Translations under genes and position numbers: made by a program
Part shown: positions 5,553 through 9,343 of the stretch, one piece after another
Numbering within the stretch: the stretch's first letter is position 1
Layout of the letters: each line of letters opens with the position of its first letter
Notes under the pieces: generated by a model
Databases searched by the model: none
Told to the model about the DNA's origin: nothing
What the model saw: only the letters and a program-made list of their open reading frames with translations
From: Nothopassalora personata
Lineage: Eukaryota; Ascomycota; Dothideomycetes; Mycosphaerellales; Mycosphaerellaceae
Length of the DNA: 64,000 bases
Assembly (NCBI GenBank): GCA_033816765.1
Contig: CM066290.1
Span: 3,038,001 to 3,102,000 of the forward strand
Reading direction: 5' to 3'

Positions 5553-6869
5553 ATGCCTTCTTTCACCTGCGAGATGTGCAAGTCAGCTCGCGCGCAGATA
5601 TCGCGACCGAAGAACCACGCTCGGATATGCTCGACATGCTTTATCCAGATCTTCGAAGACGAAGTCGCTGATGCCGTCAACACTGCGGACCTGTTCCAGC
5701 CTGGTGAAAAGGTCGCGATTGGCGCGTCTGGTGGCAAAGACAGCACTGTGCTGGCATCGGTGCTGAAGACGTTGAACGACCGTCACAGCTGGGGGCTTGA
5801 TCTTGTTCTGCTCAGTGTTGATGAGGGTATCACGGGATACAGAGATCACAGTCTCGAGGCTGTTAAGAGACACGCTGCGCAGTACGACCTGCCGCTCAAG
5901 ATCGTGAGCTATGCAGAGCTATATGGCTGGAGCATGGACCAGGTCGTGGCACAGGTAGGCAAGAAGGGCAATTGTACTTACTGTGGCGTCTTCAGACGAC
6001 AGGCACTAGACCGCGGAGCGGCCATGCTGGGCGTGGGCCATGTTGTGACTGGGCATAACGCCGACGATGTCGCAGAGACAGTGTTGATGAACTTGCTACG
6101 AGGCGATCTCCCACGATTAAGCAGAGCAACGAGCATTGTCACGAGTACACCATCCGCGAAGGCGATCGAGGCCACAGACGGCAGCGTGAGCTTCACGAAC
6201 GTTAAACGGAGCAAGCCTTTGATGTATGCATATGAGAAGGAGATTGTGCTTTATGCACACCACAGGAAACTGGACTACTTCACTACAGAGTGCATCTACA
6301 GTCCCGAAGCATTTCGAGGTTCGGCACGTACATTGATCAAGAACTTGGAGAGAATACGGCCAGAAAGCATACTGGATGTTGTGCAGTCCGGCATTGACAT
6401 GGCCAGGCTCGTCCCAGATGCTGATGGCAACTGCAAAGACGCATGCAGCAGTAGCACAGACTCTATGGCGAAGGGCGCCGAAGACGAAACTGCTGGCGGC
6501 TGTGGGACAGCGGTGGGTGGTTCAAGCGGTGGCGAGATGGCTGAAATGGAGAAGAAACTTCGAGAAGATGAGGAGGCCAAGGATAATGGCACCGAAGTCG
6601 AGGTTAAGGTGCCCGCGAAGACAACCAACGGGCAAAATCACGATAGAGAACGAAGTATCACTCAAAGTATGTCAATCCGGATGAAGCAGGAGAAGAAATC
6701 GAATCGCAAGCCGACACGTGATGCACCACCTCCGAAGCAGAAGCTCGGTCAGTGCGAACGGTGTGGCTACCTGTCTTCTCAAGCAGTGTGCAAAGCATGC
6801 GTGTTACTTGAAGGACTCAACAAAGCTCGACCGCGGACCGAGATAGGAGTATCTGAAGCAGGAGGTTGA
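5553..6869 (+). CDS. NCS6: Cytoplasmic tRNA 2-thiolation protein 1 (Ctu1/Ncs6)
   Basis: This 438-residue single-exon protein belongs to the TtcA/Ctu1 adenylating sulfurtransferases that put the 2-thio group on wobble uridine 34 of tRNA Lys, Glu and Gln, using sulfur from the Urm1 pathway together with Ctu2/Ncs2. Seen directly: N-terminal zinc-binding CEMC (6-9) and CSTC (26-29), the ATP-pyrophosphatase loop SGGKDST at 59-65, the CTYC pair in the middle, the [14 protein letters not shown] motif, and a C-terminal zinc module [10 protein letters not shown] ... CKAC followed by [11 protein letters not shown] low-complexity glycine/glutamate-rich segment (roughly residues 295-385) separates catalytic core and tail, as in other fungal members. 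It is longer than the yeast protein (359 residues) mainly because of that linker. Confidence 0.95.
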
Positions 6870-8510: not shown

Positions 8511-8809
8511 TTTGCACAAATCGAGATACCCTACCTTGCTGCACACCTACACCTTTCTACTTCGGTTCATGGCGACATGTAAAGGCGTCTGTCCATCGCT
8601 GCCATATCTCCCTCGGCTTATATTGTGCTCACCTCAGTAGGGTTGAGGTACGTTGCCAAGACAACATCTGAGAAGCCGGTGGCACGGTTTATTAGTCAAC
8701 ATCCCGAGCTCAGCCGGTAAAGCTCGGCTAAATTTGACATATTATATATACAATTATAATTCATTCTTACTCATCAACGTGACATAGTTTGCTGTGCATA
8801 ACACTTGTC
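8511..8809. other. 3' flank of secreted protein gene and upstream region of tRNA-Trp
   Basis: No coding sequence. An AT-rich stretch with TATATATA at 8743-8750 lies about 60 bp before the tRNA gene and could serve as an upstream TATA element. Confidence 0.4.
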
Positions 8810-8946
8810 GACCCTGTGGCGCAGCGGTAGCGCGTCTGATTCCAGTTTTCCTGGAACCTCCAGAAGGTCATCCGGTATGTGCAGTCAATCCATACACGCT
8901 GGTGATGAATCTAACGAAACGAACAGTTCAAATCGGGTCAGGGTCA
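8810..8946 (+). tRNA. tRNA-Trp (CCA) with an anticodon intron and a second, mRNA-like intron in the T arm
   Basis: Removing two inserts leaves a 72-nt cloverleaf. Acceptor GACCCTG pairs fully with CAGGGTC, discriminator A; D stem GCGC/GCGC; loop AGCGGTA; anticodon CCA at 8842-8844; variable AGGTC; T stem ATCCG/CGGGT; T loop TTCAAAT. Tertiary pairs 8-14, 15-48 and 26-44 are present. The first insert (8846-8858, 13 nt) follows position 37, the canonical site, and its CTGGAA can pair with TTCCAG around the anticodon, as in normal pre-tRNAs. The second insert (8875-8926, 52 nt) falls between positions 53 and 54. It starts GTATGT, has CTAAC 12 nt before its end and finishes ACAG, exactly like a fungal spliceosomal intron. 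One flaw remains, an A31-C39 mismatch in the anticodon stem. Identity as tRNA-Trp is strong; how the second intron is removed is unknown. Confidence 0.85.
8875..8926 (+). other. Spliceosomal-type intron inside the tRNA-Trp T arm
   Basis: The 52-nt insert carries a consensus 5' splice site (GTATGT), a branch site CTAAC at 8911-8915 and a 3' CAG, with the short branch-to-acceptor distance usual for fungal introns. GTATG at its start can pair with CATAC at 8890-8894 to make a hairpin. The last G of the insert rebuilds the 5' end of the B box (GTTCAAATC), so the internal Pol III promoter stays intact in the DNA. I find no bulge-helix-bulge pairing at its ends, which argues against removal by the tRNA endonuclease. 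Confidence 0.7.
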
Positions 8947-9343
8947 TGCGAGCATGAATCCTCTGTTATCCTTTTGCGTCGATCTGTACTAAGTTGAACC
9001 TGCATCGCTTCTCGCGAAGTGACTGCGTGGCAGACAGACGAGAGGTCGAGTATAAGGTCTCCAACGAAAACGTGCAAGTTTGAAGCTCGGAAGCATCTCT
9101 CGCTACCCGAAAACTCAGCTGCATCTTTACCTACATCTTTTTGCTCCTCTGTTACCACCGCTCACTCTCCTCCTGTATCACGCAGTTTTGCAACGGTGTC
9201 ACGTGGGTGTGTGAACTTGTGGTGCGGTCAATGCCAAGACATGTGGCCCGTGCCTCCGTTCCCGCGGAAGATTTGCTCTCCTATAGAACACCATCTTCTA
9301 GCCATCAACACTAAGCCGTGCCATCGTGCACGCAAAACACACA
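8947..9343. other. Intergenic between tRNA-Trp and mS45
   Basis: No gene or repeat seen apart from the short T-run at 8972-8975; it contains the promoter of the ribosomal-protein gene. Confidence 0.5.
8972..8975 (+). terminator. Candidate Pol III terminator (T4)
   Basis: A run of four T residues 26 nt after the tRNA 3' end is the first downstream T-run. It is short for a Pol III terminator, so the call is weak. Confidence 0.35.

Follow-up and report, generated by a model that had tools for sequence, protein, structure and literature searches.

RNA polymerase III (Pol III) transcribes U6. In archaea and some red algae, ectopic tRNA introns are removed by the tRNA splicing endonuclease; in both groups several introns are found at unusual tRNA positions, and these are of the bulge–helix–bulge type. 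A 2017 survey names U3 and U6 as the only small structured RNAs in which interruption by an intron was, up to then, known to be frequent (PMC5832005). Introner-like elements are described as a source of recent spliceosomal intron gain in Dothideomycetes, including Fulvia, Dothistroma and others (PMC4457414); a term search of the main text of that paper found no mention of tRNA. A literature search with thin coverage of subscription papers and preprints, which took in the available portions of PMC11782384, PMC6726248 and PMC5832005, recognised no description of nuclear tRNA genes that carry spliceosomal introns.

Here we analyse a tRNA-Trp(CCA) gene in a 64,000-nt stretch of genomic DNA from Nothopassalora personata (the window). 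Judged from its sequence, a 52-nt insert in this gene, the only tRNA-Trp(CCA) gene found, is very probably a U2-type spliceosomal intron; at least 19 nuclear tRNA genes of the genome hold such introns, and their number is 26 or more.

The tRNA-Trp(CCA) locus

The tRNA-Trp(CCA) gene spans positions 8810–8946 of the window (+ strand) and carries two inserts, a 37/38 intron and a 52-nt insert. The preliminary description had given this extent, a normal intron after position 37, now placed at 8846–8858 (13 nt), and an insert of 52 nt exactly between positions 53 and 54, which we likewise find there, at 8875–8926. The locus reads as follows.

8743..8750, + strand: TATA-like stretch TATATATA, beginning 67 nt 5′ of the mature tRNA-Trp 5′ end (sequence; putative function)
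8810..8845, + strand: tRNA-Trp exon, positions 1–37, with the acceptor 5′ strand, D arm with A box, anticodon stem 5′ strand and CCA (cloverleaf parse; ARAGORN, spliced form)
8846..8858, + strand: ordinary 37/38 tRNA intron, 13 nt (sequence; parse; ARAGORN i(37,13))
8859..8874, + strand: tRNA-Trp exon, positions 38–53, with the anticodon stem 3′ strand, variable loop and T stem 5′ strand ATCCG (parse)
8875..8926, + strand: 52-nt spliceosomal-type intron at 53/54 (best cloverleaf-scored deletion, tied with a slid copy)
8875..8880, + strand: 5′ splice site GTATGT of the insert (sequence)
8911..8915, + strand: branch-site motif CTAAC of the insert, branch A 12 nt from the intron end (sequence)
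8924..8926, + strand: 3′ splice site CAG of the insert (sequence)
8925..8935, + strand: B-box-like AGTTCAAATCG, completed by the AG of the 3′ splice site (sequence; putative promoter role)
8927..8946, + strand: tRNA-Trp 3′ exon, positions 54–73, with the T loop, T stem and acceptor 3′ strands and discriminator A (parse)
8972..8975, + strand: TTTT, possible Pol III terminator, 25 nt 3′ of tRNA-Trp (sequence; nearest TTTT)

The GTATGT, CTAAC and CAG signals are present as first described; 8 nt separate CTAAC from CAG, and the distance of 12 nt is that between the branch A and the end of the intron. Excision restores the T stem (ATCCG/CGGGT) and T loop (TTCAAAT), again in agreement with the preliminary description. 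The spliced tRNA-Trp forms a complete cloverleaf with a CCA anticodon and a single stem mismatch; the T stem is fully paired as claimed, and the A31–C39 mismatch in the anticodon stem requires a small correction to the earlier picture of the restored tRNA; a second small correction is that the closest TTTT lies 25 nt downstream of the gene. Within the 13-nt intron, CTGGAA is a 6-nt complement of TTCCAG in the anticodon loop and can pair with it.

Scoring 26,590 single deletions of the locus by cloverleaf score only, we obtained the best value for the GT..AG excision (60.8, tied with its own copy slid one base; next 56.5). Among 256 dinucleotide classes, GT..AG was joint first with the slid copy. 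When anticodon-loop introns were allowed, ARAGORN returned tRNA-Trp(cca) with a 13-nt intron from the spliced form and nothing from the unspliced form. The ARAGORN window tool found no gene in the window, and Rfam at the gathering threshold gave no match there.

All genome-wide searches used the same genome (54.5 Mb). The tRNA-Trp anticodon-arm pattern matched once (reversed controls, 0), as did a 137-base query comprising the gene with its intron. When up to three mismatches were allowed, the A-box pattern matched at 10 places versus 5 in the control, the sole exact match being the gene in the window; two other matches of this pattern (L012 and L018) held no convincing tRNA. No second tRNA-Trp was recognised by the A-box, anticodon-arm or 137-base queries, which copies with an intron inside the patterns could escape, and a scan of viral contigs for a relative found none. 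Several intact tRNA-Trp genes elsewhere, named in the preliminary description as the case against it, were not found by the whole-genome patterns.

Upstream of the tRNA gene, window positions 5553–6869 hold an apparently intronless ORF for cytoplasmic tRNA 2-thiolation protein 1 (CTU1). Its 438 aa align over the full length to a 437-aa Dothistroma protein; the closest match is from Dothistroma septosporum (86% identity), followed among named matches by Pseudocercospora, Ramularia, Cercospora and Zymoseptoria.

Spliceosomal-type inserts in tRNA genes across the genome

Of 77 B-box loci tested, 19 were tRNA genes holding 26 spliceosomal-type inserts, with up to three per gene. The 77 loci were part of the matches to a B-box plus T-run pattern, the A-box pattern and other patterns, which leaves the inventory incomplete. 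Interrupted genes were initially spotted by eye among the pattern matches and then scored, with scoring blind to splice motifs. The B-box plus T-run pattern gave 101 matches, which include one place counted repeatedly and copies of a dispersed repeat, versus 9 for the reversed control. Other B-box patterns were barely above their controls (combined 211 versus 164; AGTTC 60 versus 55; TGTTC 78 versus 65), and GGTTC without the second C gave 24 matches versus 52 in the control. The remaining 58 loci comprised 14 read as uninterrupted tRNA genes, 12 members of a tRNA-like family and 32 that were unresolved or not tRNA, L103 being one of the 32. The inserts are distributed as follows.

Trp-CCA, one gene: insert at 53/54
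Arg-ACG, two genes: insert at 53/54
Gly-TCC, one gene: insert at 53/54
Glu-CTC, five genes: insert at 52/53; two of the genes with an extra D-loop insert
Thr-AGT, two genes: insert at 10/11
Asp-GTC, two genes: one insert each, at 27/28 and at 28/29, with identical junction product
Ala-TGC and Thr-TGT, one gene each: insert at 25/26
Thr-CGT, one gene: inserts at 6/7 and 24/25
Ile-AAT, two genes (L037, L126): inserts after 15 and at 25/26, with a 37/38 intron further on
Cys-GCA, one gene (L149): three inserts, at 10/11, 28/29 and 48/49

All of these inserts sit off 37/38, at 53/54 in tRNA-Trp and at varied positions in the other genes, and 17 of the 19 genes also have an ordinary 37/38 intron. 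In both Ile-AAT genes, an 11-nt exon, TTGGTTAGAGC, lies between two GT..AG introns. The T-arm introns (52/53 and 53/54) end in AG directly before (G)TTC, so that the B-box core is kept, and several D-arm introns come after an exonic AG. TTTT begins 2–25 nt downstream in all 19 genes, 18 of which came from searches requiring a nearby TTTT; the tRNA-Trp gene alone was recovered independently of that requirement. In the 150 nt upstream, TATA-like motifs precede 12 interrupted genes (at 42–85 nt, and in two genes also further away) versus 6 of 14 uninterrupted ones; being present in both sets, the motif was rejected as a mark of interrupted genes.

The inserts share a uniform set of signals. Each of the 26 starts with GT, ends with AG and has G at +5, and 25 are 50–57 nt long, the remaining one measuring 74 nt. 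A CTRAY motif with its A 10–14 nt from the 3′ end is found in 22 (one has a second at 31) and is absent from four; in 1,000 shuffles of the interiors, the chance count averaged 4.6 with a maximum of 11. For mRNA introns, the comparison covers a single gene, for succinate-semialdehyde dehydrogenase, the only intron-bearing protein gene mapped in the window. By eye, its introns measure 51 nt (GTATGC..CTAAT..CAG) and 49 nt (GTAAGT..TTGAC..CAG), with one longer; its best named protein matches include Meristemomyces, Elasticomyces, Oleoguttula and Septoria. In signals and length, the inserts match the short mRNA introns of this one protein gene.

The motif-blind deletion test gave the same result across the set. 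In 13 single-insert genes the best cloverleaf deletion was GT..AG, alone or tied only with its own copies slid by 1–2 nt. GT..AG ranked first of 256 dinucleotide classes in the five two-insert genes (tied with a slid copy in the two Glu-CTC genes L025 and L047) and in the three-insert gene, where it scored 59.9 versus 46.7 (deletions of 46–62 nt only). Among the 58 other loci GT..AG came top only trivially, in seven uninterrupted tRNA genes in which upstream deletions alter nothing. Score-improving excisions are not always GT..AG, because in 11 of 12 tested loci of the tRNA-like family the best deletions start with GG, with an AG end seen only in slid ties, and AC..AT came out best in L131; in the twelfth family locus, L134, no deletion reached the threshold. 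Chance is excluded at tRNA-Trp mainly because like architecture recurs in 18 other tRNA genes. The preliminary reading, that a functional tRNA-Trp gene holds an intron of the mRNA type, gains support from the 26 like inserts in 19 tRNA genes, which extend it beyond this one gene.

ARAGORN recognised a tRNA in the spliced forms of all 19 genes and the assigned anticodon in 17, giving an unexpected anticodon for L132 and L126; from the unspliced forms, the right anticodon was obtained in two, both Asp. The shifted-excision control was a weak one: the same anticodon was returned in up to 15 of 24 shifts, small shifts leaving most of the tRNA in place.

Several pattern matches fell outside this set. 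In L103:283–422, probably a tRNA-Val gene, GTAAGT..CTAAC..CAG lies in the D arm; GT..AG ranks 6 of 256 there in the deletion test, and the locus was left out of the 19. L138 may be an uninterrupted tRNA gene with a long variable arm. L095, L096, L100, L106, L127, L128, L139 and other pattern matches yielded no convincing tRNA. An Rfam tRNA search of the genome gave 63 matches, a lower bound that does not list the intronless Cys gene L129; the 28 read comprise 3 on a mitochondrial-like contig and 25 copies of a dispersed tRNA-like repeat. This repeat, 74–75 nt long (L004–L008 and L050–L069), accounts for all 25 matches read of the 60 off the mitochondrial-like contig, and another copy (L038) adjoins coding sequence that by eye resembles a retroelement chromodomain. 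The mitochondrial-like contigs C17 and C18 contain identical tRNA-like pattern matches and are perhaps one molecule assembled twice.

The tRNA-like family that supplied 12 of the tested loci is dispersed and ~130 nt long. Its ends resemble those of a tRNA, with A and B boxes and with acceptor, D and T stems, and between them lies an extended central helix. A conserved insert with GGGGCCC and mostly ACCATTCAA replaces the normal anticodon loop. For nine aligned copies 34 pairs are predicted, two of which are changed on both sides, and L044 and L119 gave no Rfam match at E 0.01. The family may represent a SINE or an unknown Pol III RNA. The 16 copies read are:

L097, L098, L108, L112, L114, L115, L134, L032, L041, L044, L046, L049 and four in L119

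Paralogous genes, alternative readings and predicted processing

Among paralogues the exons are conserved while the introns drift. Mature sequences of genes with the same anticodon are 86–100% identical, and those of the different isoacceptors Thr-CGT and Thr-AGT 83%. By contrast, identity between the interiors of paralogous introns is 0.44–0.64 (highest in the Asp pair) versus 0.45–0.50 for shuffled sequences. Some stem changes are compensatory, for example at 5–68 in the Arg-ACG pair and at 6–67 in the Ile-AAT pair. In the two Asp-GTC genes the intron has slid by one base with the junction unchanged. The D-loop intron of the Glu-CTC genes L025 and L047 is absent from L099, whose mature sequence is identical, and besides the Cys-GCA gene with three introns (L149) the genome has one without any (L129), which Rfam scores as a plain tRNA with 55 bits. 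Functional, old introns would explain this pattern; decaying copies would not.

Conservation of this kind bears on the possibility that the tRNA-Trp gene is a pseudogene, or another non-functional copy with a small inserted element, while a different tRNA-Trp gene serves the cell. The A31–C39 mismatch would fit such a copy, and a second tRNA-Trp with introns inside the search patterns could be missed. Yet none was recognised by the three queries, the architecture recurs in 18 more genes, and exons are conserved where introns drift; we regard a pseudogene as highly improbable. Very unlikely, too, is that the inserts are ectopic tRNA introns cut by the tRNA splicing endonuclease. Ordinary 37/38 introns in 17 of the 19 genes are in keeping with this idea, but the uniform GT..AG, the +5 G and the branch motif at a fixed distance are not endonuclease features. 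Against a bulge–helix–bulge template, one of the 26 inserts paired fully in the centre; the tRNA-Trp insert had 2 of 4 central pairs and none of the 3 outer ones. The 37/38 introns, taken as the positive control, did not fit the template either, which makes these counts uninformative.

The tRNAs might instead be parts of RNA polymerase II (Pol II) transcripts with ordinary introns and be released from the spliced host RNA. The spliceosome normally acts on Pol II transcripts, and the TATA-like motifs upstream of 12 of the 19 genes point the same way. Such motifs, however, also precede 6 of 14 uninterrupted genes, the introns sit inside the tRNA body, and T runs near the 3′ ends and B boxes speak for Pol III, although both are largely a matter of ascertainment. 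We consider a Pol II host improbable, and take spliceosomal introns within Pol III-transcribed tRNA genes as the most probable reading.

From this architecture we infer which polymerase acts, that the spliceosome takes part, how the steps are ordered and that the product is functional. Pol III would transcribe the interrupted genes, as the A and B boxes and T runs suggest; the B-box and T-run part of this evidence is largely ascertainment, the loci having been found by these features. The T arm of pre-tRNA-Trp could not form before the spliceosome joins positions 53 and 54, and this joining would create the fold required by RNase P, RNase Z and the tRNA endonuclease. RNase P and RNase Z would then trim the ends, and the tRNA endonuclease and ligase would take out the ordinary 37/38 intron. 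The tRNA-Trp gene would need both machines, because its 13-nt intron holds the 6-nt complement of the anticodon loop; that most interrupted genes (17 of 19) would also need the tRNA endonuclease is the best reading of their sequences.

More broadly, much of this lineage's nuclear tRNA supply, its only recognised tRNA-Trp included, has probably long depended on the spliceosome, with many Pol III pre-tRNAs passing through two unrelated splicing machines. The introns would be old and should occur in related species, because paralogues have introns at common positions whose sequences have diverged until their identity is close to random.

Comparison with known intron systems

If true, this arrangement would break the textbook division of labour, in which the tRNA endonuclease deals with nuclear tRNA introns and the spliceosome with those of mRNA, and would couple translation capacity to splicing. 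It would test the action of the spliceosome on many short Pol III transcripts and on 11-nt exons, and paralogues with and without introns would provide a record of intron gain or loss in non-coding genes. Interrupted tRNA genes of related species would escape standard tRNA finders, a possible reason why fungal annotations made with such finders lack some tRNA genes.

Introner-like elements spread through a genome in copies that resemble each other, whereas the tRNA-Trp gene with its intron has one match in the genome and the introns of paralogous tRNA genes are unlike one another; the genome-wide search for copies used the tRNA-Trp gene and its intron only. The tRNA introns may be of degenerated introner origin. 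Ordinary 37/38 introns likewise lie in tRNA genes but differ from the inserts in position, length class, signals and presumed enzyme. Archaeal and red-algal ectopic introns can be multiple and at unusual positions, as here; the inserts described here instead carry splice-site and branch motifs.

The introns of fungal U6 snRNA and U3 snoRNA are alike in being mRNA-type introns in small structured RNAs. In the present genome, two matches to U6 and one to U3 covered the full models and contained no insert. Paralogues of U3 can differ in intron presence, as do the paralogous tRNA genes here. Unlike in U6 and U3, the hosts are nuclear tRNA genes, numerous and interrupted at many different sites; one gene carries three introns, and in two genes an exon of 11 nt separates a pair of introns. 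What would be new is the large-scale presence of a known intron type in host genes of another class.
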